The notes under the pieces were generated by a model that searched no databases, was not told the origin of the DNA, and was given only the letters and a program-made list of their open reading frames with translations. A DNA stretch of 64,000 nt, taken from positions 1-64,000 of the forward strand of contig WOUZ01000006.1 in assembly GCA_009773165.1 (NCBI GenBank), read 5' to 3'. Below, piece by piece: positions 2-17,600 of the stretch; positions within the stretch are counted from its first letter, which is position 1; each line of letters begins with the position of its first letter. The translations under genes were made by a program, and so were the position numbers. Origin of the DNA: Bacteroidota bacterium. GTDB taxonomy: Bacteria > Bacteroidota > Bacteroidia > Bacteroidales > F082.

Positions 2-1048
2 GTGAATTATGGAGGTAGTCAGACCTTCAACATAACAGCTAATACAGGTTATGAAATCGCTAATGTTTTGGTTGATGGTGTGAGTGTTGGGGCTGTTGGT
101 AGTTATACCTTCAGTAATGTGACGGCTAATCATACTATTGCCGCAAGCTTTAACCTATTGACTTATACAGTCACTGCTTCTGCCGGAACGGGTGGTAGCA
201 TCAGTCCGCAAGGAACAATTACAGTAAATTATGGAGGTAGCCAGACCTTCAACATAACAGCCAGCACTGGTTATGAAATTGCTAATGTATTGGTTGATGG
301 TGTGAGTGTTGGGGCTGTTGGCAGTTATACCTTCAGTAATGTGACGGCTAATCATACCATTGCAGCTAGCTTTAACCTATTGACTTATACACTCACAGCT
401 TCTGCCGGAACAGGTGGTGGCATCAGACCGCAAGGAACAATTACAGTGAATTATGGAGGTAATCAGACTTTCAACATAACCGCAAATACGGGTTATGAAA
501 TCGCTAATGTTTTGGTTGATGGTGTGAGTGTTGGGGCTGTTGGAAGCTATACTTTCAGTAATGTGACAGCTAATCATACCATTGCAGCAAGCTTTAACCT
601 ATTGACATATACACTCACAGCTTCTGCTGGAACAGGTGGTAGCATCAGTCCGCCAGGAACAATAACAGTGAATTATGGAGGTAATCAGACCTTCAATATT
701 ACAGCAAATACAGGTTTTGAAATTGCAAATGTATTGGTTGATGGTGTGAGTGTTGGGACTGTTGGCAGTTATACCTTCAGTAATGTGACGGCTAATCATA
801 CCATTGCCGCAAGTTTCAGTATACTGACTTATGCTATTACGGCCACAGCTGGTCCCAACGGAACTATTACTCCATCAGGAATTGTACAAATTAATTATGG
901 AGAAAGCCAGACCTTTACTTTTCAGGCATCTGAAGGATATCAGGTTTACGCATTTTGGGTAGATGGTGACAGCATCGGCAATGGCGAAAGCTACACTTTC
1001 TCAAATATAGTTAGTAATCACGACATTCATGTTCAATTCTCACTCATA
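2..1048 (+). repeat. 222-bp tandem coding repeats (74 aa units)
   Basis: Four copies with few differences repeat every 222 bp, and a fifth diverged copy ends near 1048. The near identity at DNA level points to recent expansion or homogenisation. The array continues past the left edge of the window. Confidence 0.9.
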
Positions 1049-1321
1049 ATTGGTATTGACGAAGAAAATTTGATTGGTACAATCAGGGGTTGGCCAAATC
1101 CAACAACAGATTGGTTTTTCTTACAAACAGAAATGAGCGGGCTTGAAACTAGTCGAATAGAGATCGTGTTATGTAACGTACAAGGAAAAACATTGTGGCG
1201 AGATCAGAGAAATGAAACACTTAAAAAAGTTCCATTGCACGGTTTAAAGCCAGGTTTGTATTTCATTCATCTTTTTTACGAAGGAAGTTTGGTAAAAAGT
1301 ATGAAGGTTGTTAAAATGTAA
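2..1321 (+). CDS. Secreted InlB-type repeat protein with T9SS sorting tail (3' part only)
   Basis: This is the C-terminal 439 residues of a larger gene; the frame is open to the left edge, so the true start lies outside the window. Four nearly identical 74-residue units (recognisable by TITVNYGG and GYEIANVLVDG) are followed by one diverged unit (residues about 275-348). These match the divergent InlB B-repeat / Listeria-Bacteroides repeat type found in long surface adhesins. From about residue 355 a type A T9SS C-terminal domain follows (GWPNPTTDW, then GLKPGLYFIHLF and a KSMKVVKM end). This tail directs export across the outer membrane and surface attachment. An adhesive or stalk role is inference. 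The domain assignment is firm; ligand and function are unknown. Confidence 0.85.
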   Translation: MNYGGSQTFNITANTGYEIANVLVDGVSVGAVGSYTFSNVTANHTIAASFNLLTYTVTASAGTGGSISPQGTITVNYGGSQTFNITASTGYEIANVLVDGVSVGAVGSYTFSNVTANHTIAASFNLLTYTLTASAGTGGGIRPQGTITVNYGGNQTFNITANTGYEIANVLVDGVSVGAVGSYTFSNVTANHTIAASFNLLTYTLTASAGTGGSISPPGTITVNYGGNQTFNITANTGFEIANVLVDGVSVGTVGSYTFSNVTANHTIAASFSILTYAITATAGPNGTITPSGIVQINYGESQTFTFQASEGYQVYAFWVDGDSIGNGESYTFSNIVSNHDIHVQFSLIIGIDEENLIGTIRGWPNPTTDWFFLQTEMSGLETSRIEIVLCNVQGKTLWRDQRNETLKKVPLHGLKPGLYFIHLFYEGSLVKSMKVVKM

Positions 1322-2308: not shown

Positions 2309-5059
2309 ATGACAAATAATACAAATAAAAACCCTGAACAAATTGCAAGAGACCGCATTGACGGGAAATTGCGTCTTGCTGGGTGGGTTATCCAAGATAA
2401 AAAGAAGATAGATTTTAGTGCTGCCATTGGAATAGCTGTTAAAGAATATCTGACCGAAGTTGGACCTGCTGACTATGTGTTATTCGTTGACAGAAAACCA
2501 GTTGGTGTAATTGAAGCTAAAAAAGAAGAAGAAGGAGAAAATATTACGGTAGTTGAAGATCAATCTGGTAATTATGCAGCAAGTAAACTAAAGCACATTA
2601 ATAACGAACCTCTTCCCTATATTTATGAATCGACAGGTGTAATTACAAGATTTACCAATGCCAAAGACCCTAAACCAAGGGCAAAAAATATATTTTCATT
2701 CCATCGGCCAGAAACTATTAAGTTTCAACTAAAGAATGAAAGAACATTACGGAGTAGACTATTTGACTTTCCTGCTTTAAACAAAGGAAACTTGCGGGAA
2801 TGTCAATATTCAGCAATTAAAAACCTTGAAATTTCTTTTGAAGAGAATAGACCAAAAGCATTGATTCAAATGGCTACTGGGGCAGGAAAAACATTTACTG
2901 CAATTTCCTCAATATACCGCCTACTAGAATATGCCGATGCAAAACGGATTCTCTTTCTTGTTGATACAAAAAATCTAGGAGAGCAAGCCGAACAAGAGTT
3001 TATGGCTTTTATTCCACCCAACGAGAATAGAACTTTTACAGAACTCTATACGGTTCAGCGATTAACTTCATCGTTTGTAAACCCCGATGCGCATGTATGT
3101 ATAAGCACTATTCAAAGATTATATTCAATTTTGAAAGGTGAAGAATTGGATGAAAAATCGGAAGAAGAAAACCCCAACGAAAAAGATTGGCAACCTAAAG
3201 AACCACTTCCTGTAATATACAATGAGAAAATACCAATAGAGTTTTTCGATTTTATTGTAATTGACGAATGTCACCGTTCTATTTACAACTTGTGGCGACA
3301 AGTGTTGGAATATTTCGATGCCTTTTTGATTGGCTTAACAGCTACACCTGATAAACGAACTTTTGGTTTTTTTAATGAAAATATTGTGAGTGAGTACACC
3401 CATGAAGAAGCGGTTGCAGATGGTGTAAATGTAACTTATGACACCTACCTTATTGAAACAAAAATTACAAAAGCAGGTGCTGTTATTGAAGCGAAGGAGT
3501 TTGTTGATAAACGCGAGAGGTTAAGCCGTAGAAAACGTTGGGAGCAATTGGACGAAGAAGTCGCTTATGCTCCAAATCAGTTGGACAAGGATATTGTAAA
3601 CCCAAGTCAAATCAGAAATGTTATTAAAGCCTTTAAGCAAAAACTACCTGAGATTTTCCCTGGAAGAGCAGAAGTTCCAAAAACGTTAATCTTTGCTAAA
3701 ACCGATAGCCATGCCGATGACATCATCAATATTGTAAGAGAAGAGTTTGGAGAAGGAAACAGTTTTTGTAAAAAGATTACCTATCAAACTGAGGATAATC
3801 CCAAAACAGTTTTATCTTCTTTTCGTAACGATTACTTCCCTCGTATTGCTGTTACCGTTGACATGATTGCAACTGGTACCGACGTGAAACCTTTGGAGTG
3901 TTTGATTTTTATGCGAAATGTTAAATCCAAAGGTTATTTTGAGCAAATGAAAGGGCGAGGCACTCGTACTATAAAATTAGAAGATTTAAAAAAAGTTACA
4001 CCTTCTGCCATTGCTACAAAAGACCATTTTGTAATTGTAGATGCTATTGGTGTAATGAAAACTACCAAAACAGACAGCCGACCATTGGAGCGAAAAAGAG
4101 GCATTCCATTAAAAGATTTGATGTATGCTGCCATGATGGGTAATGTTGAAGAGGATTTGTTTGTTTCTTTAGCGGGAAGATTAGGGCGAATCGAAAAACA
4201 AATTACTCCAGATGAAAAGAAAAAATTTCAGGAATTAGCCAAGGGCAAAACCATCAATCAAATGGTAAAAGACCTGTTGGACGTTTTTGATCCTGATAAA
4301 GTGCAAGCTTATTCTGTGTCAAAATATGGAAATCCAACACCTGCACAAGTAGATGAAGCACAAATAGAATTAGCAAAACAAGCTACAATTTCCATATCAG
4401 GTGAGTTGATTGAATATGTGGACAATGTGCGGAAATCACTGGAACAGATCATAGACATTATAAATATTGATGAGTTGGAATTTGCAGGCTGGGATACCCA
4501 CGCACAAGAAAAGGCATTGGAATTGGTAGCGAATTTTAAAGAATACATTGAAGTCAACAAAGATGAGATTGTGGCTTTGAGTTGGTTCTATTCCCAACCC
4601 TATCAGCGGAAAGAACTTACCTATAAAATGGTGAAAGAATTACTTGAAAAGCTAAAAGCCGACAAGCCAACCCTTGCTCCATTGCGTATTTGGCAAGCAT
4701 ACGAACATATTGATAACCTGCAAAGCAGCCAGCCACTCAACGAAATGATTGCATTGGTAAGTTTGATACGCCGTGTGATGGGTTTGGATGAAAAACTCAC
4801 ACCGTACAACAAGGCTGTTGATAAACGCTTTCAGGATTGGGTATTTAAAAAGCAAGCAGGGACACTAAAGTATTCCGAAGAGCAAATGACTTGGTTGCGT
4901 ATGATTAAAGACCATATTGCCACCTCGTTCCATTTAGAGAAAGACGATTTAGATTACAGTCCGTTTGATTCCAAAGGTGGTCTGATGAAGATTTGGCAAC
5001 TCTTTGGCGATAATTTGGATGTAATAATTGATGAACTTAATAAAGAATTGGCAGCATAA
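2309..5059 (+). CDS. hsdR: Type I restriction enzyme R subunit (HsdR)
   Basis: The motor and nuclease subunit of a type I restriction-modification complex: it translocates DNA using ATP and cuts unmodified DNA. I chose the ATG at 2309 (916 aa) over an in-frame TTG 33 bp upstream, because the protein then begins like other members. The N-terminal nuclease domain carries the PD-(D/E)XK residues D55 and E69-x-K71 (VGVIEAKK). The helicase core has Walker A ATGAGKT (189-195), the DECH box (320-323) and TAT (345-347). Length is normal for the family. It is the first gene of a six-gene operon; its TAA overlaps the ATG of hsdS by one base. All key residues appear intact, so it is probably functional. 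Confidence 0.95.
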   Translation: MTNNTNKNPEQIARDRIDGKLRLAGWVIQDKKKIDFSAAIGIAVKEYLTEVGPADYVLFVDRKPVGVIEAKKEEEGENITVVEDQSGNYAASKLKHINNEPLPYIYESTGVITRFTNAKDPKPRAKNIFSFHRPETIKFQLKNERTLRSRLFDFPALNKGNLRECQYSAIKNLEISFEENRPKALIQMATGAGKTFTAISSIYRLLEYADAKRILFLVDTKNLGEQAEQEFMAFIPPNENRTFTELYTVQRLTSSFVNPDAHVCISTIQRLYSILKGEELDEKSEEENPNEKDWQPKEPLPVIYNEKIPIEFFDFIVIDECHRSIYNLWRQVLEYFDAFLIGLTATPDKRTFGFFNENIVSEYTHEEAVADGVNVTYDTYLIETKITKAGAVIEAKEFVDKRERLSRRKRWEQLDEEVAYAPNQLDKDIVNPSQIRNVIKAFKQKLPEIFPGRAEVPKTLIFAKTDSHADDIINIVREEFGEGNSFCKKITYQTEDNPKTVLSSFRNDYFPRIAVTVDMIATGTDVKPLECLIFMRNVKSKGYFEQMKGRGTRTIKLEDLKKVTPSAIATKDHFVIVDAIGVMKTTKTDSRPLERKRGIPLKDLMYAAMMGNVEEDLFVSLAGRLGRIEKQITPDEKKKFQELAKGKTINQMVKDLLDVFDPDKVQAYSVSKYGNPTPAQVDEAQIELAKQATISISGELIEYVDNVRKSLEQIIDIINIDELEFAGWDTHAQEKALELVANFKEYIEVNKDEIVALSWFYSQPYQRKELTYKMVKELLEKLKADKPTLAPLRIWQAYEHIDNLQSSQPLNEMIALVSLIRRVMGLDEKLTPYNKAVDKRFQDWVFKKQAGTLKYSEEQMTWLRMIKDHIATSFHLEKDDLDYSPFDSKGGLMKIWQLFGDNLDVIIDELNKELAA

Positions 5060-6735
5060 TGGTAAATGGTTGGATAGAAGTTGAATTTGAACAGTTAGTT
5101 GATTACATTCAACCAACTGAGTTTATTGTTGAAAGCACAGACTATAAGGATAGTTTTAAAATACCTGTTCTTACTGCTGGAAAATCATTTATTAAGGGAT
5201 ACACGAATGAAACTCATGGCATTTTCAATAATTTACCTGCAATTATATTTGATGATTTCACAACAGCATCTAAATATGTAAATTTCCCTTTTAAAGTTAA
5301 GTCTTCTGCTATGAAGATTTTAGTCCCTTCATGTGATTTAATAAATCTAAAATATGTATTCCTTGGAATGCAAATTACTGATGTAAGAAGTGATACTCAT
5401 AAAAGATATTGGATTTCTGATTTTGCCAAAAAGACAATACCTCTGCCACCTCTAAATGAGCAAAATAGAATAATAGATAAAATCGAAGAACTATTCAGCG
5501 ATTTAGATAATGGCATAGACAATCTCAAACTGGCACAGAACCAATTAAAGGTGTACCGACAAGCATTATTAAAATCTGCCTTTGAAGGTAAACTTACCGA
5601 ACAATGGCGAAAAGAGAACAATCCAGAGCCGGCAGAAAAATTGCTTGAACGAATAAAAGTGGAACGAAAAAAACGCTACGAACAGGAATTGAAAGATTGG
5701 AAAGAGGCAGTTAAGGTTTGGGGAAAAGGAACAAAAAAGGAAAGAAAGCCAAGTAAGCCCAGCGCTCCAATTGACTATCCAAGTTTGAAGCAAGTAGACA
5801 TTGAAGAACTCCCTGTTATTCCTGAAAATTGGATTTGGACTAGAAATAATGAGATTTTGTATTATGTAACAAGTGGTTCAAGAGATTGGAAAAAATATTA
5901 TTCTGATAAGGGAGCTTTTTTTATTAGAACGCAAGATATCAAAACAAATAAACTTGATCTTGATGGTGCTGCCTTTGTCGATTTACCAATTAATGTTGAA
6001 GGTAAAAGAAGTTTAGTTCAAAAAGGCGATTTACTAATGACTATAACAGGTGCAAATGTTGGCAAAGTAGCATATATCAAGGATGACATACCAGAATCCT
6101 ATGTTAGCCAATCTGTAGCATTAATGAAGCCTGTAAATGTAAAAATCACTCCGTATCTTCAATTGTATTTTCAATCAGATGTATATGGCGGAAAAATGAT
6201 TAGTGGATTAGTATATGGAGTTGGACGACCTGTTCTTAGTTTGGAAAACATGAGAGAAGCACCAGTCGTTATTTGTTCATTTGAAGAACAAGAACAGATT
6301 ATTGCGGAGATTGAATCTCAGTTTTCAATAATTGAGAATTTAGAGCAAACAATAAACGATGGAATTAGAAAATCAGAATTTCTTCGCCAAAGTATACTCA
6401 AAAAAGCCTTTGAAGGGAAACTTGTTGCACAAGACCCAAATGATGAACCAGCAGCGGAGTTGATGAAACGCATAAAGGCTGAAAAGAAGAAATATTTGGA
6501 AGAACAAAAACAACAAAAGAAAAGGACACCTAAAAAAATAAAGAAGATGAGTAAAGAACTTAGCATTGAAGAAGTACTCAAAGCTTCCGACAAGCCAATG
6601 CTTGCCAAAGACGTTTGGCAGCAAAGCAAGCATAAAGAAAACATTGAAGAGTTTTATGCCGAATTAAAAAAGATTCAGAATAGTATCAAAGAAGTAAAAA
6701 AAGGAACTGAATCACTATTATCACTTGCAAAATGA
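5059..6735 (+). CDS. hsdS: Type I restriction specificity subunit (HsdS)
   Basis: It recognises the target sequence for both methylation and restriction. The 558 residues hold two target-recognition domains (about 1-130 and 245-410), each followed by a conserved helical spacer: PLPPLNEQNRIIDKIEELF with LLKSAFEGKL, then FEEQEQIIAEIESQF with ILKKAFEGKL. After the second spacer comes a lysine-rich linker and a roughly 75-residue C-terminal extension that looks like a small helical or winged-helix module (MSKELSIEEVLKASD onward), which short HsdS proteins lack. It overlaps hsdR by 1 nt and the next gene by 4 nt (ATGA), indicating translational coupling. The recognition site cannot be read from sequence. 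Confidence 0.93.
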   Translation: MVNGWIEVEFEQLVDYIQPTEFIVESTDYKDSFKIPVLTAGKSFIKGYTNETHGIFNNLPAIIFDDFTTASKYVNFPFKVKSSAMKILVPSCDLINLKYVFLGMQITDVRSDTHKRYWISDFAKKTIPLPPLNEQNRIIDKIEELFSDLDNGIDNLKLAQNQLKVYRQALLKSAFEGKLTEQWRKENNPEPAEKLLERIKVERKKRYEQELKDWKEAVKVWGKGTKKERKPSKPSAPIDYPSLKQVDIEELPVIPENWIWTRNNEILYYVTSGSRDWKKYYSDKGAFFIRTQDIKTNKLDLDGAAFVDLPINVEGKRSLVQKGDLLMTITGANVGKVAYIKDDIPESYVSQSVALMKPVNVKITPYLQLYFQSDVYGGKMISGLVYGVGRPVLSLENMREAPVVICSFEEQEQIIAEIESQFSIIENLEQTINDGIRKSEFLRQSILKKAFEGKLVAQDPNDEPAAELMKRIKAEKKKYLEEQKQQKKRTPKKIKKMSKELSIEEVLKASDKPMLAKDVWQQSKHKENIEEFYAELKKIQNSIKEVKKGTESLLSLAK

Positions 6736-8306
6736 GAATAGATAAAGTACATATAAAATCACGTTTCAAAAATCTAGAGGATTTTCATATTGACATAGAT
6801 GAAAATGCTTGGGAAACGGTATTACTTGGGTTAAATGCGACAGGAAAATCAAACTTTTTGGAAGCACTTGTAATCATTTTCAGGGATTTGGATTTAATCT
6901 ATGTTCATAATCGAAAGATTAAGCAGCTTTTTAATTTTTATATTAAGTATGAATGCAGAGGAAACAATATTGAAGTAAACTTTGAAAATTCAAAGTATGA
7001 ATTCAAAGTCAACGATAAGAATATAACTTCTGAGTTTACAAGAAACATCGAGCATTATTTACCAAATCATGTTTTTATCTATTATTCAGGTGTCAGCGAC
7101 CGTTTGGCAAATTTGTATATGCCCCATCTGAAATTATATTACGATGAAATTACTAAACCAGAAGCCAAACGAACCAAATTTGATACGATAAGAAGAATAT
7201 TTCTTGCACAAAATATTCATGCAAATTTTGCTCTGATTGCATTTTACCTGTTCAAAGATCAGGAAGAAGAAACAATCAAATTCTTAAGAGAGGAATTGAA
7301 AATTGTTGACTTTGGCTCTGCTTTATTTATGCTCAAAGAACCTGAATGGTCTCAGGATAAAAATGATTATTTCTGGGGTGCTGATGGTTTAGTTAGAAGA
7401 TTTTTAGACGATTTGCTATTGTTTTCATTTGCCCCAATAAAGTTTAAAGCACGTGTTGATGTTTCATATAAAAAAACTGAAACACAAGACAGAAGCTACT
7501 TGTATATAAAAGATAGAAGAAGTTTTGAAGAATTAATTGATTTTAAGTACAAGAATAAAATTGAGCTTTTTAATGCACTTGAAAGTATTCATGTATCAGA
7601 CATGCTTCATGATGTTAAAATCAAAGTCCAAAAAGAGGGCGTTGATGGCGAATTAGCTATGTCGGAACTCAGCGAAGGCGAAAAGCAATTACTTTCAGTT
7701 TTGGGGTTGCTTAAATTCACTAAAGATGAAGAATCCCTAATTTTATTAGATGAGCCAGACACTCATTTAAATCCAATGTGGAAATGGAAATTTTTGGATT
7801 ACTTAGATAGAGTTGTAAAACGCAAAGAAAATACTCAAATCATATTCTGTTCTCATGACCCTTTGGTGATAGGCAACTTGAAGAAAAATCAAGTTCAAAT
7901 TTTTAAGAAAAACAAAGAAGGTAAAACAGAAGCGTTTAACCCATATATGAGTCCAAGAGAAATGAGTGTTTCGAAAATTCTAACCAGTGAATTATTTGGA
8001 ATACCTTCTTTGATGAGTAAAAAGCTTGAAGACTTGTTAAATCAGAAAAGATTTCTACAAGCTAAAATTGCACAAGGAGAGCTTGGTGAAAATGAAAAAC
8101 ACAAATTTGAAAGACTTAAAAATTACTTCGATAGCATTGGTTTTAATGATGATACTGCCGACAGTCGATATAACCAATATTTGAAATTAACAAGTAATTA
8201 TAGAGAGTTTACCAACAGAAAATATACCAAGGAAGAAGCCGAAGAGCTTGACAGAATAGCAAAAGAAGTCCTTGCCGAAATGTTAAAAGAAGAAAAGGGC
8301 GAATGA
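6732..8306 (+). CDS. ptuA: ABC/SMC-like AAA ATPase, PtuA-type (restriction-linked)
   Basis: A 524-residue ATPase of the RecF/OLD/ABC type without a long coiled coil and without an obvious TOPRIM nuclease domain. Visible motifs are Walker A GLNATGKSN (33-41), signature LSEGEKQ (313-319), Walker B LILLDEPDTHLNP (336-348) and the switch histidine in CSHD (375). Such ATPases paired with an HNH protein form the Septu anti-phage system (PtuA senses and regulates, PtuB cuts). Here the HNH gene follows with a 4-nt overlap, and the pair sits inside a type I restriction operon. It overlaps hsdS by 4 nt. Assignment as an ATPase is firm; the Septu label rests on the pairing and architecture. Confidence 0.75.
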   Translation: MRIDKVHIKSRFKNLEDFHIDIDENAWETVLLGLNATGKSNFLEALVIIFRDLDLIYVHNRKIKQLFNFYIKYECRGNNIEVNFENSKYEFKVNDKNITSEFTRNIEHYLPNHVFIYYSGVSDRLANLYMPHLKLYYDEITKPEAKRTKFDTIRRIFLAQNIHANFALIAFYLFKDQEEETIKFLREELKIVDFGSALFMLKEPEWSQDKNDYFWGADGLVRRFLDDLLLFSFAPIKFKARVDVSYKKTETQDRSYLYIKDRRSFEELIDFKYKNKIELFNALESIHVSDMLHDVKIKVQKEGVDGELAMSELSEGEKQLLSVLGLLKFTKDEESLILLDEPDTHLNPMWKWKFLDYLDRVVKRKENTQIIFCSHDPLVIGNLKKNQVQIFKKNKEGKTEAFNPYMSPREMSVSKILTSELFGIPSLMSKKLEDLLNQKRFLQAKIAQGELGENEKHKFERLKNYFDSIGFNDDTADSRYNQYLKLTSNYREFTNRKYTKEEAEELDRIAKEVLAEMLKEEKGE

Positions 8307-9196
8307 GATATATAGATAAAAATAGATTTCAAGAAGCTGTCGAGGCCTTTGGATGGGATGCTATTAAACAGGCTCAGCATAATGCGATGAAAGGAATGGA
8401 TGTAGAAAGAAAAAAAGAGTATATCCGCACTCATCCAGAATGGAATAAATTACAACCCATTATGCTTGGTCTATCTCACAATAAATGCTGGTATTCTGAA
8501 GCCCCAATAGGTAGTAGTGATTTTGAAGTTGATCACTTCCGCCCAAAATGCAAATCGAAAGTAAAAGTTGATTACACAGAATCAAAAAGCACGAATACAG
8601 TTTTAAAAGAAAATGGATATTGGTGGTTAGCCTATGAATGGAGCAACTATAGATTATCTGGAGGGCTAACAAATAAGTTGAGAAGAGACAGATTAGGTGA
8701 TTGTGAAGATGTGGAAGGAAAAGGTGATTATTTTCCATTGGATTGCAATGATGTTGGTCGTGTTGCTAACGATGAAGAAAATATTAATTGTGAGGTTCCA
8801 ATTTTGTTAGATCCTTTCAATCAGGAAGATGTTAGTTTATTAACTTTTGACTCAAACGGAGAAGTAATAAGTGCAGGATATAGTGATTATGAACACCAAC
8901 GGGTGTTGCAATCTATTTTTTATTACCATTTAGACCTTGAACAGTTGAATAAGGAAAGGTTAATGGCTTGGAAGGATTGTGAAAGAGAAATTCTTGAGAT
9001 AAAAAAGAGTATTGACACAGCCCCAGATGAAAGAGCAAGAAGGCTAATGGTAGCATCATGTCTTAAAAGATTAACCGACTATTTGAAAAATCCAGACAGG
9101 CCATATACGTCAGCAGTAAAAGCTTGCGTGCGAGTTTATTCAAAACTAGATGGATTTATTTGGTTAGATAGGTTTGTAACAGCAGTTTTAATTTAA
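8303..9196 (+). CDS. ptuB: HNH endonuclease, PtuB-type
   Basis: The 297-residue protein has the hallmark of the retron/Septu HNH family: KCWYSE (61-66), then DFEVDHFRPK (73-82), then WWLAYEWSNYR and a following TNKLRRD segment, and later LLDPFN. D77-H78 would be the catalytic HNH pair. Many relatives have a Cys where this protein has Ser65, so the usual CxxC half of the zinc site may be altered; the fold and catalytic pair remain. In Septu the PtuB nuclease cuts DNA under control of the PtuA ATPase. It overlaps ptuA by 4 nt and lies 7 nt before the next gene, so one transcript is expected. Confidence 0.75.
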   Translation: MRYIDKNRFQEAVEAFGWDAIKQAQHNAMKGMDVERKKEYIRTHPEWNKLQPIMLGLSHNKCWYSEAPIGSSDFEVDHFRPKCKSKVKVDYTESKSTNTVLKENGYWWLAYEWSNYRLSGGLTNKLRRDRLGDCEDVEGKGDYFPLDCNDVGRVANDEENINCEVPILLDPFNQEDVSLLTFDSNGEVISAGYSDYEHQRVLQSIFYYHLDLEQLNKERLMAWKDCEREILEIKKSIDTAPDERARRLMVASCLKRLTDYLKNPDRPYTSAVKACVRVYSKLDGFIWLDRFVTAVLI

Positions 9197-9203
9197 AAAG
9201 ACA

Positions 9204-11012
9204 ATGAAGCTAAATAGCATAAATAAGAATCATATAGAAAATGCTGCCAATTTAATTGACGAGCAAGGAGTGCCCAAAGACCATGTTTGGAGTCAATATT
9301 TTGTAGTTGTAAATGGGAAAGAGTATCCTTTTAAATATTTGGTAAGAACTGCTTATCAATTAGTAACCAATGAACAACTTCAATTTCAATCTAATGACTC
9401 CTATCGTAGTTATATAGAAAATTTAGGTTTTGAATTCCGGTATTTTGAGGGAGGCTACAATTTTTTTACAAAAGAAGAATTGGAGTTTTATAGTTCAATA
9501 GTAAATTCAGATTACAGAACAAATAATCCGGAACATCAATATTATGGGCAAAAACTTTATCCCATTATTGCAAAAGCAAAATATTGGGCTGAGCAATTAA
9601 TTATTGAAGGTTTTAAATTAAGACCTGATAATAATTGGGTAGGAGCTAGCTCGAAAATAGTACCGTATTTCTGGCCAAAAATCTATTCGGGTGAGGATAA
9701 AGATGTGTTCTTTAATGTTGAAGTTAATGGAAAGGAACAATTTCTTGGTTATAAGCTTGAAGGATATTATAAAACGCAAAAAGCACTACCCGATTATAAA
9801 ATAAAGATAGTTAAGGAATACAAAGAATTAATCAACTGGGAATGGCCAAAAATATCATTTGATAAATTTCATGAATACAATTGGGAGAGATTAATCAAGG
9901 AGAGCAAAGATTATGTTCTCAAATATTTAGTGCATCATAACCATTTAAAAACCATTCTTTCAAAAGAAACAAAAATTGCTCGTATTACTTGGAATACCTA
10001 CCAATGGGTAAAACCTTCAGGGCCGTCAGGTAAATCAACAAATCCAAGCTTTGAAAAGGATAATGGATTTGGTCACGAAGAATGGTTGTTTGATAGTGAC
10101 AAAGCAATCAATGGAATTAAATATGGGTTTTTAGAACCCATTCATAAATTTCGCTCAAATTACGAGGGTAAAGTTTTTGATATATCACTTTACACACGCG
10201 ATGGCGAATCAAATAAATCATTTTGGGTTACAACTTTGAAAGATGTTCAGGTACTTACTGCTGTAGAATCAAATGAAGTATTACAACATTACAAGAATCA
10301 GGGTTGGTACGATGAAATGAAAGTTGACCTTTACAACCTCAATTTAAACTCTGCTCAACTTGATGAATGGATAAAAGAAGATGGTTCAGGTTTATTCAAT
10401 ATAAGATTTACAGCAACTCAAATAAATGAAATCCCAACCGAACTAATTCCGGTTCTTGACGAAAAGGATATTCCATCAACACGCTATACCTTAATGGATA
10501 TTCCTAAGAATATTCAAGAGAAATATGAAGTATTAACGAAAACAGGGTTTTCTTTTGAAAATTCAGGAAGTGTTGAAGCAGACCTAGGCACGAAAAGTAA
10601 GAGAACTGCGAGTAAGAGAGAAATTGAGCTTGAATTGAAACACAACATTCTTCAAACAAAATTTCTGAAATACTTACAGCATAAGTACGCCAAAGCAATT
10701 GTTAAGCGTGAATGCACGGCTTATGGAGCAGCTAGAATTGACATAACCCGAAAAACAAATACAGGCTTTATATTTTATGAAATTAAAACTTACAACAATT
10801 TAAGGACTTCAATCAGAGAAGGGATAGGTCAATTATTGGAATATAGTCTTTACCCCAATGTTAATGAAGCGGAAAGTATTGTTTTGGTTTCCCATGTGGC
10901 TCCAACAGATGAGATTAAGAATTACCTTAATCACTTAAAGAATTTTATCAAACTTCCTTTTTCCTATATTCATTTTGATATTGAGAAAGAGGAAATAATC
11001 ACTGAAATTTAA
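9204..11012 (+). CDS. Putative modification-dependent nuclease: ScoMcrA-like head plus PD-(D/E)XK
   Basis: 602 residues with no single familiar full-length family. Residues 1-80 resemble the small head domain of ScoMcrA-type type IV restriction enzymes (an AANLIDE helix, SQYFVVVNGKEYPFKYLV, and an ENLGFEF end). Residues 261-297 contain TWNTYQWVKPSGPSGKS and NGFGHEEWLFD, a motif I associate with DNA-modification readers or nuclease-linked proteins. The C-terminal 100 residues form a PD-(D/E)XK-like site: D513 (ARIDI), E526-x-K528 (FYEIKTY) and a conserved-looking GQLLEY (542-547). This suggests a reader-nuclease that cuts modified DNA. The gene lies between ptuB and hsdM with only 7 and 4 nt of spacing. 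Function is inference; the nuclease core is well supported. Confidence 0.6.
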   Translation: MKLNSINKNHIENAANLIDEQGVPKDHVWSQYFVVVNGKEYPFKYLVRTAYQLVTNEQLQFQSNDSYRSYIENLGFEFRYFEGGYNFFTKEELEFYSSIVNSDYRTNNPEHQYYGQKLYPIIAKAKYWAEQLIIEGFKLRPDNNWVGASSKIVPYFWPKIYSGEDKDVFFNVEVNGKEQFLGYKLEGYYKTQKALPDYKIKIVKEYKELINWEWPKISFDKFHEYNWERLIKESKDYVLKYLVHHNHLKTILSKETKIARITWNTYQWVKPSGPSGKSTNPSFEKDNGFGHEEWLFDSDKAINGIKYGFLEPIHKFRSNYEGKVFDISLYTRDGESNKSFWVTTLKDVQVLTAVESNEVLQHYKNQGWYDEMKVDLYNLNLNSAQLDEWIKEDGSGLFNIRFTATQINEIPTELIPVLDEKDIPSTRYTLMDIPKNIQEKYEVLTKTGFSFENSGSVEADLGTKSKRTASKREIELELKHNILQTKFLKYLQHKYAKAIVKRECTAYGAARIDITRKTNTGFIFYEIKTYNNLRTSIREGIGQLLEYSLYPNVNEAESIVLVSHVAPTDEIKNYLNHLKNFIKLPFSYIHFDIEKEEIITEI

Positions 11013-11016
11013 AAAT

Positions 11017-12498
11017 ATGACAACAAATAATTTAGTAGCCAAGATTTGGTCTTTTTGCGATACACTCAGAGATGACGGAGTAAGTTATTCAGACTATTTG
11101 GAGCAACTTACATTTTTGCTATTCCTAAAAATGGCAGACGAATACGAAAAGGGTCCTCAAAAACGCAAATCTGGAATACCGGAAAAATATAATTGGGATA
11201 GTATTTTCTCTAAAAGTGGTGGAAAACTTGAATCTCATTATGTAGAACTTTTAAAAGAATTAGGTAAAGAAGCGGGAATGCTTGGGCAAATTTTCACAAA
11301 AGCACAAAATAAAATTCAAGACCCTGCAAAACTTGATCGTTTGGTTAAGATGATTGGCAAAGAGACATGGGTTAGCATGGAAACCGATGTTAAGGGCGAT
11401 ATGTACGAAGGTCTTTTGGAAAAAAATGCACAAGACACCAAGAGCGGTGCAGGTCAGTATTTTACGCCAAGAGACTTGATTAAGGCTATTGTGGAATGTG
11501 TCCGTCCTGAGCCTAAAAAAACTATTGCGGACCCTGCTTGTGGTACTGGTGGTTTCTTTCTTTCGTCGTACGATTTCCTCACCGATAAAACCAACTATAA
11601 ACTCGACAAGGAAGAAACACGTTTTCTTAAAGAAGAAACATTTCATGGGTGGGAAATTGTTGCATCAACAGCTCGAATGTGCTTAATGAACCTATTTCTT
11701 CATAATATTGGTGACATTACTTCTGAACCACCAGTGAAAAGAGAAGATGCATTACTTACAAAGCCAAGTGAATTATTTGATTATATTCTTGCAAATCCTC
11801 CTTTTGGAAAAAAAAGTAGCATCACAATTACGAATTCTGATGGAAAAGAAGAAAAAGAAGAACTTACTTATAACCGAAATGATTTTTGGGTTACAACTAC
11901 AAACAAGCAACTAAACTTTTTACAGCACATCGTTTCAATGTTAAAAACTACAGGTAAGGCAGCTGTAGTATTACCTGACAATGTTTTGTTTGAAGGTGGT
12001 GTTGGTGAAACTGTACGAAAAAAATTAATGGAAAAGGTTGATTTGCATACTATTCTTCGTTTGCCAACAGGTATTTTTTATGCACAAGGAGTAAAAGCAA
12101 ATGTGTTGTTTTTTGATGCAAAACCAGCCTCAAAAGATGTAATGACCAAAGAAGTTTGGATATTTGATTACCGCACCAACATTAGCCATACATTAAAGAA
12201 AAGTCCTCTGAAATTCTCAGACTTAAAAGAATTTGTAGAGTGCTACAATCCTAAAAATAGAAATGAAAGAAAAGAAACTTGGTCAATACAGAATCCAGAA
12301 GGCAGATGGAAAAAATTCAGCTACGATGATATCATTGCAAGAGACAAAACCAGTTTAGATATTTTCTGGCTTCGAGATGACAACATGCTGGATTTGGAAA
12401 ACCTTCCCGAACCTGAAGTATTAGCTCAGGAAATTATTGAAAATATTGAAGCAGCATTAGACAGCTTTAAAGAAGTTGCATTAAAACTTGAAAACTGA
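11017..12498 (+). CDS. hsdM: Type I modification methyltransferase subunit (HsdM)
   Basis: An N6-adenine DNA methyltransferase that protects the host site and forms the core of the restriction complex with HsdS. The 493 residues begin with the helical HsdM N-terminal domain (FCDTLRDDGVSYSDYLEQ). The SAM-binding motif I is ADPACGTGG (171-179) and the catalytic NPPF motif IV is at 260-263 (ILANPPFGKK). The segment SGAGQYFTPRDLIKAIV (143-159) is typical. Length is standard. It is the last gene of the operon, 4 nt after the 602-residue gene, so methylation and restriction genes lie at opposite ends of one transcript. That order is unusual: hsdM and hsdS are normally adjacent. Confidence 0.95.
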   Translation: MTTNNLVAKIWSFCDTLRDDGVSYSDYLEQLTFLLFLKMADEYEKGPQKRKSGIPEKYNWDSIFSKSGGKLESHYVELLKELGKEAGMLGQIFTKAQNKIQDPAKLDRLVKMIGKETWVSMETDVKGDMYEGLLEKNAQDTKSGAGQYFTPRDLIKAIVECVRPEPKKTIADPACGTGGFFLSSYDFLTDKTNYKLDKEETRFLKEETFHGWEIVASTARMCLMNLFLHNIGDITSEPPVKREDALLTKPSELFDYILANPPFGKKSSITITNSDGKEEKEELTYNRNDFWVTTTNKQLNFLQHIVSMLKTTGKAAVVLPDNVLFEGGVGETVRKKLMEKVDLHTILRLPTGIFYAQGVKANVLFFDAKPASKDVMTKEVWIFDYRTNISHTLKKSPLKFSDLKEFVECYNPKNRNERKETWSIQNPEGRWKKFSYDDIIARDKTSLDIFWLRDDNMLDLENLPEPEVLAQEIIENIEAALDSFKEVALKLEN

Positions 12499-12731: not shown

Positions 12732-13574
12732 ATGTATAGTCAACTACATATGAAAGTGGAAACCCTGCAAAGTATAACTGAAATTAAATCTGAGGACTGT
12801 TATGAAACAAAAGGCAGCAGGCCGGTAAAGGTCTTTTGTGATGACTTAAATTATTATGTTTGCAAGTATAACACAGGTCAGGGCTTTCCAGCCGTGCTCT
12901 TCAACGAATACCTTGCTGCTTGTTTTTTAAAGATTTGGCAGTTGGATGTGCCTGATTTTGCCTTTGTGAATGTTGCTAAAGAACATGTGAAACGCACCGG
13001 TTATCCCTATCATTATTTTGATGTTCCTTGCTTTGGATCGCGGTTTTACGGAGCGTTCAAAGAAGTTGATAAATTGTTTTTAGAAACACCCGGCTTGAAA
13101 AATGATCCTGTTTCAGGTAAAGAATCTTTCCTGAAAATCGGACTGTTTGATATTTGGATGTCCAACGAAGACAGACATTACGAAAATTTCAACCTTTTGT
13201 ACAACCTCAAAGAAAAACGCTACGTCCCCATCGATCATGCCATGTGTTTCAATTCCGGTAACCTCAACAAAGCTCCTTATTTGATAGGCAATAACGAAAG
13301 TATTTTGTCGTCTCCATTCATCAATCGCTTTTTTTACAAACCTTTGCAACAAAATTTCAACGATACCCGTTTAAGCCTTATAAAGGAATTTAAACATAAC
13401 GCATCAAATTGCCATGAAGACCTTGATATTATTTTGGCAAACACTCCGATAGCCTGGAAATCTGATAATAAATATCTTAGATCCAGGCTCGAATTCCTGT
13501 TTAGTGAAAGTTGGATCAAAGCCTGTGTAGAACATTTTACTACAATTCTCACACTTACCCTAAACCCCAAATAA
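12732..13574 (+). CDS. HipA-like kinase (HipA_2 family)
   Basis: 280 residues that match the small HipA-like Ser/Thr kinase family rather than full-length HipA. Visible are an ATP-binding lysine in YYVCKY (K45), a catalytic loop DIWMSNEDRHYENFN (140-154) with D147 and downstream Asn, and a metal-binding Asp in VPIDHAMCF (D168). An alternative start lies at residue 7 (12750). It is followed two bases later by a DUF3037-like gene, a pairing often seen for this kinase family. By analogy it may phosphorylate a host factor in a toxin-antitoxin or defence setting, but no classic HipB antitoxin is present. Its place just after a restriction operon supports a defence link. Confidence 0.75.
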   Translation: MYSQLHMKVETLQSITEIKSEDCYETKGSRPVKVFCDDLNYYVCKYNTGQGFPAVLFNEYLAACFLKIWQLDVPDFAFVNVAKEHVKRTGYPYHYFDVPCFGSRFYGAFKEVDKLFLETPGLKNDPVSGKESFLKIGLFDIWMSNEDRHYENFNLLYNLKEKRYVPIDHAMCFNSGNLNKAPYLIGNNESILSSPFINRFFYKPLQQNFNDTRLSLIKEFKHNASNCHEDLDIILANTPIAWKSDNKYLRSRLEFLFSESWIKACVEHFTTILTLTLNPK

Positions 13575-13576
13575 AG

Positions 13577-14398
13577 ATGAAAACATTTTACAGTATATTA
13601 TCCGCAGTCATCAATACAGTAACCGGTGAAAAAATATCACTAGGCTTATTGCTTTCCGATGGAAACAAAAGTTTTTTCGGGTATTCCGATTCGCGCCTTT
13701 CCCTGATCGGTACCCTTATTGACAAGGAAAGCAAGAAATTTATAAGGCAATATCTACGGTCGATTGATAATGTCATTCAAAAAATTGATATCAATCAGGA
13801 TCAGCTTACCATACTTGAGCACGATGGAAAAAACGTGATTATCAACGAACCTTATATCGCCTACTTAAGCACCTACAGTCAGAATGTAGTTTCGTTTTCG
13901 AAGCCTGTTTTGATAACGGTCGAGGTAAAAGAACATGTTTTTCAGAATTTGTTTGCAAAATTCATAGACGATGAAACTGTTGTTGAAACGATGAAGAAAA
14001 GCAATTTCCAGGTCGTTAAATCAGCATTCTTTCCGCACGTACAAAACCATTTCACCATTGAGAAAGAGTTTAGTCCTGAATTCAATCCCAAGCTTCTTTT
14101 ACCTGCAAGCATTGACCTGTTTGGAAAAAATGAGCGTTATGTATTAGGTCAATTTCTTGATCTTGAGAAGAACATCTATCATGTCAAGAATGATTATTTT
14201 GACTATCATCAATTGACTGAAGTTTTTTTGAAAAGTCATAAATTCTTGATCTCCTGCGAGCCTAACAAAGAAAAGTACCCTCAGCAGCATTATTTCTGGA
14301 ACGAAATAAGGAAACAACGAAGGCATCAATATGTTGATACCTCCGAGTTGGAAGTCATTGAGCGATATGCCGCTGAACATCAGGTGCAACCTGAATAA
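13577..14398 (+). CDS. DUF3037-like partner of the HipA-like kinase
   Basis: I chose the ATG at 13577, two bases after the kinase stop, giving 273 residues; a longer in-frame extension would run back into the kinase gene. The N-terminus MKTFYSILSAVINTVTGEK followed by ISLGLLL is the DUF3037 pattern (a short beta-alpha motif with GExxxLGLLL). DUF3037 genes commonly sit beside HipA_2 kinases. The protein is about twice the usual DUF3037 length, with an unassigned C-terminal half. Close spacing indicates co-translation. The biochemical role is unknown; a regulator or neutraliser of the kinase is plausible inference. Confidence 0.6.
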   Translation: MKTFYSILSAVINTVTGEKISLGLLLSDGNKSFFGYSDSRLSLIGTLIDKESKKFIRQYLRSIDNVIQKIDINQDQLTILEHDGKNVIINEPYIAYLSTYSQNVVSFSKPVLITVEVKEHVFQNLFAKFIDDETVVETMKKSNFQVVKSAFFPHVQNHFTIEKEFSPEFNPKLLLPASIDLFGKNERYVLGQFLDLEKNIYHVKNDYFDYHQLTEVFLKSHKFLISCEPNKEKYPQQHYFWNEIRKQRRHQYVDTSELEVIERYAAEHQVQPE

Positions 14399-14689: not shown

Positions 14690-17600
14690 TTATGGTTTTT
14701 GGTGAAAGTTAAGTGAGGCAGGGGCGCTTTGGCTTACGGTTAATGTACCGGATGCCCCACATCCGGCAGTTAATGATATAAAGCCTATGCGACTTAAACC
14801 TGCATTGGATGATACGGACACATTGATATTGCCGTTGTTCGTGCCGGATGTTGGTGTAATGGTTACCCATGGCAATGACTCTATGATATTCCAGGTTGAA
14901 TTTGAGGTAATATTCACTGTTTGGTTACCTTCTGATGCAGCGAAGTATAAAATACCTGGAGAAGCTGTTAGTAAACAGGAGGCTCCTTGGTTTATTGTGA
15001 TTGGAATTGATATACCACATGCTACAGAAATTGTTATTGTTCCTGTACGGGCAACACCGGGATTTGCTAAGACAGACACATTTATACTGCCATTGTTTGA
15101 TCCAGATGTTGGTGAAACTGTGACCCATGGCAAGGATTCTGAAACTGTCCAGGTTGAATTTGATGAAATACTGATGGGTTGACTACCGACAGCAGAAGAA
15201 AAGTTTAGAACACTTACTGAAGTGTTAAGTGTACAACCAATGGAACTTTGGTTAACAGTGATGGTAACCGATGTGTTACAAGCAGATGTGAGGGTTATCG
15301 TACCAGTGCGTGCACCACCAGTGTTGGATGTCACAGACACGACTATGCTGTTGTTATTTGATCCGGATGGCGGTGTTACCGCGACCCAGGACAAAGATTC
15401 AGAGACAGTCCAGCTTGAATTAGAAGTAATATTTACTGAATGACTACCAGCAGCTGAAGAAAAGTTTAACATGCTTGCAGAGACTGAAAGTGAGCAACCA
15501 GCTGCCTGATTTACAGTAATTGTAACAGAAGTGCCACACGCAGCGGTTAGCGTAATTGTTCCTGTACGGGCAGCGCCTGGATTCATCGCAGCATTCACAT
15601 TGATGGTATTATTGATTGAGCCGGATGGAGGTGTGACAGTGACCCATGATAAGGATTCAGAAACAACCCATGTTGAATTAGAGGTAACATTCACCGTTTG
15701 ATTTCCAGCAGCAGAAGAAAAGTCTAGAATACTTGAAGAGACTGTAAGTGAACAAGCAGCACTTTGGTTTACAGTGATGGTAATCGTTGTGCCACATGCC
15801 GCGGTAACTGTAATTGTTCCAAATCGCGCTGCTCCGGAATTGGCAACCACATACACCTTAAAGCTACCATTATCTGATCCGGACGTTGGAGCAATGACGA
15901 CCCACGGCAATGATTCAGAAACAGACCAGGTTGAATTTGAAGCTATAGATACCGTTTGGAAACCGGTAGCTGCAGAAAAATTCAGCATATTAGCTGAAGT
16001 AGTAAGTAAACAACCACCGGAGTTTTGGTTTACAGTTATGGAAACCGTTGTGCCACAAGCTGCTGTGAGTGTTATTATACCTGTACGGGCAGAACCAGTA
16101 TTGGCAGTCGCATTTACATTTATACTGCTATTATTTGATCCGGATGTAGGGGTCACAGTGACCCATGACAAGGATTCTGAAACCGACCAGGTTGAATTTG
16201 ATGAAATATTCACATTTTGATTTCCTGCAGTAGCAGGAAAATTTAATATGGCAGAAGAGGCAGTAAGTGTACACGGACCACTCTGAGTCACAAAAATTGT
16301 GACCGTAGTGCCACATGCTGCAGTGACTGTTACAGATCCCGAGCGAGCTGCTCCAGAATTCGCTATGACATACACCTTAAAACTGCCGCTGTTTGAGCCG
16401 GATATTGGTGTAATTGCTACCCAAGGCAATGATTCCGATACCGTCCAGTTTGAATTTGAGGTAATTACGACCGTTTGATCTCCACTAGTTGCTGGATAGT
16501 ATAAGTTGTTTGTTGATGCGGAAAGCGAGCAAGTAATGGCATTTTGATTTACAGAAATTGTTATAGTTGTACCACATGCTGCAATGAGTGATATTGTTCC
16601 TGAACGAGCTGCACCCGGATTTGATAAAACAGCGACGCTTATGCTGCTATTGTTTGACGCGGAGGGAGGTGTAACAGTGACCCATGATAATGATTCTGAG
16701 ACTACCCAACTTGAATTGGAGGTAATATTCACTGTTTGATTTCCAGCTGATGCAGAAAAAATTAATGTGTTTGAAGAGGAGGTAAGAGCACAGCCGCTGG
16801 TACCTTGGTTTATGCTGATAGTAACTGATGTGCCACAGGCTGCTGAGAGTGTTATTATACCAGAGCGGGCATTGCCAGGATTTGCAATCACGTTCACGTT
16901 TATCAGGCCATTGTTTGAGCCGGATGGAGGGGTAACAGTGACCCATGACAAAGATTCGGATACCGTCCAGCTAGAATAGGAAGAAATACTCACTGTCTGA
17001 TTACCGGCGGAGGAAGAAAAGTTCAATGTGCTTGCAGAGACGGTAAGCATACAAGGAGCAGCTTGATTAACAGTTATGGTAGCCGTTGCTCCGCAGGCTG
17101 CTGTGATTATAATTGTACCCGAGCGAGCCGGACCAGTATTCGCAATGGCAGAAACGATAATACTGCCATCATTTAAGCCGGATGGTGGCGTAACAGTGAT
17201 CCATGAAAGTGATTCTGATGTTGTCCAGCTGGCATATGAGGAAATATTTACCGTTTGATTTCCGTCAGATGCAGAAAAGTCTAATGAGCTTGTCGAGGGA
17301 GTAAGTAAGCAGGGTGAACCTTGATTAACAGTTATGATAACTGTAGCGCCACATGCTGCTGAGAGCGTTATTGTACCTGAACGCGTAATACCCGGATTCT
17401 CTGTTACAGAAACAGTTACAGTGCCATCGTTTAATCCGGACAGTGGTGTAACTGTGACCCATGGTAAAGATTCTGAAACACTCCATGAGGAATAAGATGA
17501 AATGTTCACCGTTTGATTACCAGCTGATTCAGAAAATTCTAATGAGCTCGTTGAAGAGGTTAGAACACATGGGGCACTTTGGTTAACGGTGATAGTAATA

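Follow-up and report, generated by a model that had tools for sequence, protein, structure and literature searches.

The analysed stretch of DNA (the window) is 64,000 nt long and carries a six-gene operon, hsdR-hsdS-ptuA-ptuB-gene5-hsdM, on its forward strand at 2309 to 12498, with every open reading frame intact. The features are:

hsdR, 2309 to 5059, forward strand: type I restriction subunit (916 aa, ATG start), an optional component
hsdS, 5059 to 6735, forward strand: specificity subunit (558 aa)
HsdS C-terminal HTH-like tail, 6523 to 6732, forward strand: proposed PtuA docking domain
ptuA, 6732 to 8306, forward strand: Septu ABC/SMC-type ATPase (524 aa)
ptuB, 8303 to 9196, forward strand: Septu HNH nuclease (297 aa)
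gene5, 9204 to 11012, forward strand: putative nuclease (602 aa) with an N-terminal head, a middle domain (residues ~255-432) and a C-terminal PD-(D/E)XK domain, optional
hsdM, 11017 to 12498, forward strand: N6-adenine methylase (493 aa)

Neighbouring genes overlap by 1 nt (hsdR/hsdS) or 4 nt (hsdS/ptuA, ptuA/ptuB) or are separated by 7 nt (ptuB/gene5) or 4 nt (gene5/hsdM). With intact forward-strand frames and no gap above 7 nt, this confirms the view taken in a preliminary description of this DNA that the six tightly packed genes form one operon. A mechanical call starts the hsdR frame at a TTG (2276), and we prefer the ATG at 2309 because the R genes of two related loci (L024 and L033) also encode 916 aa. 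The gene order is not a product of chance, since S-ptuA-ptuB-gene5-M is found again in 7 of 11 Bacteroidota loci and the 4-nt hsdS/ptuA overlap is kept in all nine loci where both genes are complete. For HsdM, PtuA, PtuB and gene5, dN/dS is 0.02-0.16 (least diverged pairs with finite dS), i.e., these genes are under purifying selection.

HsdR of the window matches the Pfam families ResIII (1.8e-38), EcoEI_R_C (1.5e-41) and HSDR_N (9e-6), and helicase and nuclease motifs can be read in its sequence. HsdM matches N6_Mtase (2.3e-70) and HsdM_N (1.1e-12) in Pfam and MTase_I in PADLOC (656 bits); the NPPF motif is present in all 22 HsdM sequences checked, only six of which fit a narrow motif I pattern. 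HsdS matches Methylase_S (Pfam, 2.8e-15) and Specificity_I (PADLOC, 4.8e-78). NPPF in HsdM, Methylase_S domains in HsdS and an R gene in the operon place the window's hsd genes in type I.

PtuA and PtuB are a Septu pair. They match the PADLOC profiles PDLC00293 (533 bits, 1.7e-160) and PDLC00343 (219 bits, 2.4e-65), respectively, and a PtuB profile matches solved PtuB chains (1.6e-6). The Walker A and B motifs and signature of the ATPase are intact, with the Walker A residues, LSEGE signature, DEPDTHLNP and H375 invariant across 15 sequences. The adjacent HNH nuclease has H78 and N115, which belong to a set (C62, W63, Y64, E66, D77, H78, P81, K82, N115, R117, N124) that is invariant across 14 PtuB sequences.

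HsdS has an additional C-terminal tail of about 70 residues, modelled by AlphaFold2 as three helices (pLDDT 77.6), a fold for which a PDB search gave no match. A profile of the tail detects held-out HsdS proteins from E. coli and elsewhere; among 42 loci with a window-like ptuA, detection is weak in L094-L099 (2e-11 to 1e-4) and fails in five (L040, L041, L044, L049, L093). When 395 genomes of the window's phylum were searched, nine matched, and only two HsdS proteins were strong matches, both encoded ahead of ptuA. This is not an independent finding because both genomes had supplied rows to the profile, and the sample held no further HsdS with the tail. The seven weaker matches (E 2.3e-4 to 7.3e-4) were frames of 71-100 aa from one genus, which we set aside as not HsdS.

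The product of gene5 has no Pfam match above the curated cut-off, no match to a GmrSD family and no counterpart in PADLOC, NCBIfam or the sequences of the PDB, the last also when searched with a gene5 family profile, and viral contigs held no relative. It does contain a conserved D513-x12-E526-I-K528 motif of the PD-(D/E)XK type, the nuclease core that a type IV (modification-dependent) restriction enzyme would have. The predicted helix-strand order of residues 471-563 fits this fold, in a poor AlphaFold2 model built from eight orthologues (pLDDT 48.7), and Foldseek gives a hint only in the same direction (YaeQ, XisH, Can2, Avs4 and others; best E 0.017, none at E≤0.001). Together with the Septu profiles, this motif bears out the earlier claim that the hsd operon contains a full Septu pair and, in addition, a third nuclease. 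Seven gene5 orthologues (67-76% identity) occupy the same slot. Of the closest loci, ten extend far enough for a judgement, and three of these (L025, L029, L030) lack the gene; across all 42 loci, gene5 occurs in eight, Mrr in one and McrBC in two. By its distribution, gene5 is an optional add-on. Its middle domain is fused to HNH_2 in L035, and its N-terminal head weakly matches (E 1e-5, 33%) an EVE-AAA_5 protein in L057. A Pfam search of gene5 found no reader domain for modified bases; dependence on DNA modification is plausible by domain company only.

The 42 loci come from Bacteroidota, Proteobacteria and uncultured contigs, and in every one of them hsdS lies directly in front of ptuA. The preliminary description had asked whether the synteny is conserved or the inner genes are a one-off insertion: this recurrence, with the gene5-containing order seen in Bacteroidota, answers for conservation and rules out the one-off. 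The set excludes seven more distant ptuA loci (L042, L043, L045-L048, L050; E between 1e-20 and 1e-40). In six of these seven, hsdS is also in front, and L043 begins at a contig end. Judged by gene content, the constant core is HsdM, HsdS, PtuA and PtuB, while the presence of HsdR and of a third nuclease differs between loci. PtuA had no match at E≤1e-20 in 50,697 phage records, and our literature search found no description of this HsdMS-Septu arrangement.

Type I restriction is taught as a system of R, M and S. Here, R is in the cluster of only 11 of the 42 loci (window included), and 28 have no hsdR in the flanking sequence that was fetched. It is absent by annotation and tblastn from all ten E. 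coli loci, and four whole plasmid records (L058-L061) have no HSDR_N match. Beside the window's own genome, 11 genomes were searched for relatives of the window's R: close ones (76-88%) occur only with L024, L033 and L025, and the genomes of eight R-less loci (L023, L026-L032) contain none. Three of those eight have a distant helicase match (29-36%) and seven have some HSDR_N match elsewhere, in one case only below the cut-off; in draft genomes a distant hsdR could stay hidden. On trees of 30 loci (the 27 used below plus L025, L041 and L093), R presence requires four changes on the M tree, a number as low in only 1 to 3 of 500 shuffles, and seven on the PtuA tree versus a shuffled mean of 7.1. 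R presence thus tracks the M tree and not the PtuA tree.

This distribution does not support the earlier suggestion, in the form given, that PtuAB is a passenger fired once HsdR has been blocked or evaded by a phage. Because 28 of 42 loci keep hsdM, hsdS, ptuA and ptuB without hsdR in their fetched flanks, HsdR cannot serve as the trigger in general, and it is HsdMS that PtuAB has as its constant partner.

Mantel tests, which treat the relatedness of loci only approximately, were run on 27 of the 42 loci. Those left out are cut by contig ends (L025, L033), are of more distant kinds (L041, L044, L049, L093), are near-copies (L075, L077-L081), have broken genes (L091, L092) or are a duplicate (L096). 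The HsdS body (the protein without its tail) co-varies with HsdM and the tail co-varies with PtuA: given PtuA, body and M correlate at 0.72 (0/4999 permutations), and given M, tail and PtuA correlate at r=0.66 (0/4999). The crossed comparisons are low, at 0.07 for body and PtuA given M (1324/4999) and a weak 0.22 for tail and M given PtuA (134/4999). The 70 residues preceding the tail follow M (0.82) and hardly PtuA (0.17, 93/1999). Within single gene orders the body/tail border is blurrier, with the pre-tail block at 0.37 (90/1999) and 0.38 (71/1999) against PtuA and the tail at 0.74 and 0.70.

Since the tail always adjoins ptuA, gene linkage may explain part of its correlation with PtuA. Once the near half of PtuA is accounted for, the tail still tracks the far half (0.42, 0/1999), which may just be the more informative one. 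In S-A-B-M loci, where M is far from S, the S body follows M (0.68) and the neighbouring PtuB hardly (0.20); with the S body accounted for, PtuB does follow M in M-S-A-B loci (0.42, 8/1999). E. coli MB06233 and OW1E2 share 88% identity in M, 24% in the tail, 46% in PtuA and 35% in PtuB, and for MB06233 and L094 the corresponding values are 46%, 70%, 77% and 75%. MB06233 thus combines an E. coli-type HsdM with a tail, a PtuA and a PtuB that belong to a different lineage.

That PtuA moves between M backgrounds could also be expected of a self-sufficient Septu that shares only expression with the hsd genes, as TgvAB does in a Vibrio cholerae type I cluster, and operon coupling alone could hold such genes together. 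In the available text of PMC11411939, tgvAB without the hsd genes protected from phage, independently of HsdR restriction activity, with protection by tgvAB alone 10- to 100-fold lower against several phages. However, a self-sufficient pair should also occur without M and S, and no window-like ptuAB of that kind was seen among the 42 loci. The unbroken hsdS-ptuA adjacency, the retention of HsdMS where HsdR is missing and a tail that tracks PtuA where the S body tracks M all count against it, and we consider it improbable.

The tail-PtuA co-variation fits equally well with a guard like PrrC. Here, PtuAB would stay docked and latent on HsdMS until that complex is inhibited or destroyed by a phage; once released, PtuAB would shut down the cell (e.g., by tRNA cutting) without itself reading methylation. 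The available text of PMC11555353 lists the Klebsiella PrrC locus (PrrC170) as HsdR, HsdS, PrrC, HsdM, i.e., with PrrC in the same slot, which makes the parallel with PrrC drawn in the preliminary description an apt one. As far as the accessible portions of PMC13096335 and PMC11555353 go, other PtuAB pairs deplete or cut tRNA-Tyr, and the PtuAB of retron-Eco7 is a toxin neutralised by RT and msDNA, so PtuAB is known as an effector governed by an added partner. On the other hand, a guard leaves the methylase of hsdR-less loci with no other defence job, and nicked phage DNA is the reported target of another Septu (citation in the available part of PMC11555353). We rate the guard as unlikely, albeit the most serious rival.

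Integrase-linked chromosomal islands and plasmids bear M, S, ptuA and ptuB without R, and NPPF is retained in their M. This would suit an addiction module in which HsdMS methylation shields host DNA from PtuAB, with no docking or signalling, and loss of the island kills the cell. The PtuB HNH nuclease is not known to have a site specificity that methylation could block, and shielding leaves unexplained why the tail follows PtuA, so this reading seems very improbable.

Our preferred reading, to which we give about an even chance, is a type I methylase with alternative effectors, HsdR and PtuAB, plus the accessory gene5, in which PtuAB is docked via the HsdS tail and fired by the methylase. The tail would dock the PtuA ATPase onto HsdMS, and HsdMS meeting foreign DNA without the self mark would switch PtuA on. 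Active PtuA would then license the PtuB nuclease, and the DNA would be restricted or the cell stopped. In R-less relatives, the methylase would have no effector encoded next to it other than PtuAB (in some, gene5 too), and in the window PtuAB would act alongside HsdR. Gene5 may cover phages whose modified DNA escapes a methylase-based check, as Mrr or McrBC would where they fill this slot in other loci.

How this compares with known systems depends on the component considered. Relative to type I restriction-modification (EcoEI-like R; HsdMS), the window has M, S and R by Pfam, but 28 of 42 relatives are without R in their fetched flanks and HsdS has the extra tail. MADS, an eight-gene methylation-associated system, likewise has M and S together with an AAA ATPase, and in a comparison by profiles only, matches to mad2, mad3 and mad5 are weaker. 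MAD2, MAD3 and MAD5 score far below their NCBIfam cut-offs (113.8 of 720, 39.7 of 420 and 29.1 of 400 bits) and far below the Septu and type I profiles, so we rejected MADS membership.

In the available text of PMC8565338, Septu (PADLOC Septu type I) is described as consisting of two genes, and a retron variant of it is known. Here, the PtuA and PtuB profiles match near full length and the ATPase and HNH residues are kept, but ptuAB comes after hsdS, the operon also contains hsdM, and HsdS has a tail that co-varies with PtuA. Retron I-A (Septu type II, RT-msDNA plus PtuAB) likewise has an added partner governing the PtuAB effector. The partner in our case is a type I methylase, and no RT domain was found by Pfam among the six operon proteins, which excludes a retron. 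PrrC and RloC anticodon nucleases are also ATPase-nuclease effectors within hsd operons. Unlike them, this system has two separate proteins and a dispensable hsdR: PtuA matches ATPase families and the HNH nuclease is encoded by a gene of its own, so the system is not a PrrC/RloC member. TgvAB of Vibrio cholerae VPI-2, encoded by type IV genes within a type I cluster, is, in the available text of PMC11411939, a modification-dependent nuclease inside a type I operon, as proposed for gene5, but is GmrSD-like rather than Septu, and hsdR is present in its cluster.

HsdMS-guided Septu may be a further class of restriction, with the methylase complex as sensor and an exchangeable HsdS tail firing PtuAB in place of HsdR, a proposal we hold slightly less firmly than the mechanism itself. 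If true, Septu pairs would be generic effectors placed on different sensors (RT-msDNA in retrons, HsdMS here), and HsdS would be an adaptor between the two, with a body that tracks the methylase and a tail that tracks the effector. This bears on what triggers Septu and proposes a second function for HsdS. Across chromosomes and plasmids of Bacteroidota and Proteobacteria, R is optional in this lineage and the Septu pair is the constant partner, a link that defence-finding tools would probably miss by calling Septu plus an orphan methylase. The pairing in many relatives without the classical cutting subunit suggests a defence where Septu can take over cutting. In E. coli, the four core genes are adjacent in chromosomal islands (10 loci, six of them near-identical) and can therefore be tested with standard coliphages; the E. 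coli pair scores 715 bits (PtuA) and 331 bits (PtuB) against the Septu profiles.

The operon under study occupies most of the first fifth of the window:

2309-12498, + strand: six-gene operon hsdR, hsdS, ptuA, ptuB, gene5, hsdM (gene5 encodes a putative nuclease of 602 aa)

Its junctions, in gene order, are overlaps of 1, 4 and 4 nt followed by gaps of 7 and 4 nt. Pfam matches are ResIII, EcoEI_R_C and HSDR_N in HsdR (R), Methylase_S in HsdS (S), and N6_Mtase and HsdM_N in HsdM (M), and PADLOC identifies PtuA (A) as PDLC00293 (533 bits) and PtuB (B) as PDLC00343 (219 bits). The preliminary description of a tightly packed operon with a Septu-like pair and a third nuclease inside hsd genes is borne out. 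PtuA also matches the NCBIfam model "restriction system-associated AAA family ATPase" (133 bits, below the cut-off of 300), so annotation has already noticed the link of such ATPases to restriction loci. There is no close solved structure, the best PDB matches being retron or Septu PtuA and PtuB (E about 1e-6).

We tallied all examined loci with a window-like ptuA (n=42 including the window). A ptuA counted as window-like at E<=1e-30 in phmmer, profile or BLAST searches, or at 1e-40 when genomes were searched; E. coli loci were included if their DNA resembled such a ptuA or its operon. hsdS lies immediately 5' of ptuA in 42/42 (the contig of L025 holds only the end of S), and ptuB follows ptuA wherever visible, L044 excepted. 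The nearest ptuA relatives in genome_contigs are 11 Bacteroidota loci (77-83%): seven have the order S-ptuA-ptuB-gene5-M (L023, L024, L026, L027, L028, L031, L032), three lack gene5 (L025, L029, L030) and one, L033, is broken off by a contig end. The window and L024 show all six genes in the complete order. Three uncultured contigs (L094-L096, of which L095 and L096 are apparently identical) have R-S-ptuA-ptuB-M, arranged as in the window; their R is at 52%. The system is rare, with a match at E<=1e-20 in 12/395 genomes of the window's phylum, which its relatives suggest is Bacteroidota.

hsdR is the variable part. It is within the cluster in 11/42 loci (window, L024, L033, L041, L044, L062, L093, L094, L095, L096, L099), adjoining S in L024 and L033, and is missing from the fetched flanks in 28/42 (27 plus L098, which has only a remnant). 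Its state could not be decided for L025 and L097, and the second set of the window's genome (L049), whose M begins with an HSDR_N-like stretch, was counted apart. L025 begins at a contig edge within S, and a different contig edge of that genome carries an R. The fetched flanks of L023 and L026-L032 contain no hsdR (the view of L030 reaches only 2.3 kb upstream of S), and a search with the window R finds no close relative in these eight genomes; three have distant helicase matches to it (29-36%), and all except the L029 genome have HSDR_N matches elsewhere. Four plasmids (L058-L061) extend this to whole records: Pantoea and Roseomonas have S-A-B-M (the Roseomonas ptuB being an ORF without annotation), Pseudoalteromonas donghaensis and Vibrio vulnificus have M-S-A-B, none has R beside the core, and HSDR_N occurs on 0/4 records. 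R is present in Pseudoalteromonas KG3 (L062). Some copies are decaying: L098 keeps its hsdR remnant upstream of hsdM, and L092 has a stop in ptuA and a short hsdM. The hsdM of L091 is also short.

In E. coli, hsdM-hsdS-ptuA-ptuB was found in 10/5,426 genomes by DNA similarity, which may miss diverged copies. R is found in 0/10 (fetched flanks, annotation and tblastn), core genes are visible on one side in 10/10, and an integrase is on the other side in 8/10. Two chromosomal sites are used (seven loci adjoin ygbA/flhA, three dinD/yicG), and six of the ten are >=99% alike across ptuAB. A Fic gene comes after the four genes in 7/10.

Copies without R are maintained, given dN/dS of 0.02-0.16 for M, PtuA, PtuB and gene5 (least diverged pairs with finite dS, some near saturation). 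Modules of the operon are shuffled among loci, e.g., PtuA is 94% identical and M 61% between L023 (without R) and L024 (with R), and PtuB is 94% and M 61% between L024 and L027 (without R). On quick trees of 30 loci (R state known for 28; some long branches), R presence needs 4 changes on the M tree, equally low in 1 to 3 of 500 shuffles, and 7 on the PtuA tree (shuffled mean 7.1). Gene order likewise needs 1 change on the M tree vs 5 on the PtuA tree. We read this to mean that HsdR probably goes with the methylase, whereas PtuAB combines with methylases that have HsdR and with others that lack it. A methylase-coupled Septu in which HsdR is optional describes the arrangement better than the type I operon with passengers that had been proposed. 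Judged from sequence, this arrangement is real, conserved and under selection.

In most of these loci HsdS has about 70 extra C-terminal residues (the tail; window 6523-6732), for which an HTH-like unit of three helices is predicted (pLDDT 77.6). A profile built from 17 tails and searched against the 395 genomes of the phylum, 283 of which have HsdS domains, strongly matched only two HsdS, those of the window and L039, both 5' of ptuA and both profile contributors; therefore no further HsdS among these genomes bears the tail. Seven weak matches were located in small unrelated ORFs and rejected. The profile finds held-out S of L090-L092 (5e-30 to 5e-23) and E. coli (2.8e-20 to 3.4e-19; L072 5.5e-5), matches S of L094-L099 weakly (2e-11 to 1e-4) and does not detect those of L040, L041, L044, L049 and L093.

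Mantel tests on pairwise distances (27 loci; permutation counts after each correlation) separate the tail from the remainder of HsdS (the body). When M is controlled for, tail distances correlate with those of PtuA (r=0.66, 0/4999); when PtuA is controlled for, they correlate weakly with those of M (0.22, 134/4999). Body distances correlate with M when PtuA is controlled for (0.72, 0/4999) and are unrelated to PtuA given M (0.07, 1324/4999). Since even the 70 residues preceding the tail go with M (0.82) and scarcely with PtuA (0.17, 93/1999), the border is sharp over all loci. Mere gene linkage is a real alternative, as the tail-coding end of hsdS always adjoins ptuA; within single gene orders the pre-tail block is partly tied to PtuA (0.37, 90/1999; 0.38, 71/1999), and PtuB of M-S-A-B loci correlates with M when S body is controlled for (0.42, 8/1999). 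However, in S-A-B-M loci M adjoins PtuB (or gene5), distant from S, and still follows S body (0.68, 0/1999) rather than PtuB (0.20, 142/1999). The tail, moreover, correlates with the half of PtuA farther from it even after the nearer half is accounted for (0.42, 0/1999). Both results speak against linkage alone. E. coli strain MB06233 may be read as a natural experiment on HsdS as adaptor: its HsdM is E. coli-type (88% to strain OW1E2), and its tail, PtuA and PtuB are 70, 77 and 75% identical to L094 vs 24, 46 and 35% to OW1E2.

These comparisons show a constant HsdMS-PtuAB core, an optional R and third nuclease, and a tail that co-varies with PtuA. PtuA would dock on the HsdS tail and HsdMS would serve as sensor, with PtuAB as effector; our best guess is that unmarked foreign DNA turns PtuAB on, the alternative being a guard arrangement in which attack on the methylase does so. 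Retron-Eco7, whose RT and msDNA neutralise PtuAB toxicity (PMC11555353), is a precedent for PtuAB governed by a partner. The PtuAB pairs of retron-Eco7 and Septu EcB88 act on tRNA-Tyr (PMC11555353, PMC13096335), another pair is cited as directed at nicked phage DNA (PMC11555353), Septu is described in PADLOC work, including a retron variant (PMC8565338), and passages of PMC11980606, PMC7641849 and PMC12839542 describe no such system. Full-text searches of open-licence papers turned up no account of PtuAB together with HsdMS, though one may exist in a subscription journal, PtuA and HsdM being mentioned together in one paper only, within a PrrC construct. A methylase-coupled Septu can be tested directly in E. 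coli.

gene5 matches no family above threshold (Pfam, PADLOC, NCBIfam). Seven orthologues (67-76% identity) occupy the same slot, and its C-terminal D513-x12-E526-I-K528 is kept in an alignment of 14 relatives with two exceptions: L057, which has only the head in common, and L035, where an HNH_2 nuclease replaces the D513/E526/K528 part (PD-(D/E)XK in others), so the middle domain (about 255-432) is found with two nuclease types. In its N-terminal head, gene5 shows weak similarity to the beginning of an EVE-AAA_5 protein of L057 (E 1e-5, 33%). Modification-dependent enzymes are known to have such a build, but in gene5 no reader domain is recognised and the structure model is poor. Besides gene5 (window and seven loci), the slot directly 3' of ptuB takes an Mrr_cat protein in Pseudoalteromonas KG3 (L062:10443-11486) and McrB-like plus McrC in L041 (10363-14137) and L093 (11775-14769). 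Because one slot takes different nuclease families, two being known type IV kinds, gene5 may likewise be of type IV kind, and this shared slot is the best argument for it. A similar layout is that of TgvAB, two type IV genes lying within a type I cluster (PMC11411939). Relatives of the gene5 core, mostly 330-415 aa, occur away from hsd genes in other bacteria, including stand-alone copies on Vibrio plasmids (L034:10001-11120, L036:2350-3372, L035:7998-9026), of which those in L034 and L036 sit in runs of short same-strand genes resembling integron cassettes.

Other hsd-linked sets were also seen. The second set in the window's own genome (L049:7299-13052, minus strand) is a more distant M-S-PtuA-PtuB type with an M of 759 aa; L045 and L047 have a similar layout, and the L045 M is an HSDR_N_2 + N6_Mtase fusion (Pfam). 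L042, L044 and L048 have R-M-S (M not resolved in L048) and then a larger PtuA-like ATPase (620-640 aa) after which ptuB was not found, a further hsd-linked ATPase type. Near the operon itself, a gene for a HipA_2-like kinase and a 295-aa gene overlapping it (window 12732-14398) lie 233 nt downstream of hsdM and may form a toxin or defence pair of their own, given weak PADLOC candidate matches. Both flanks of the region (window 2-1321 and 14690-19714) encode highly repetitive surface-type proteins.
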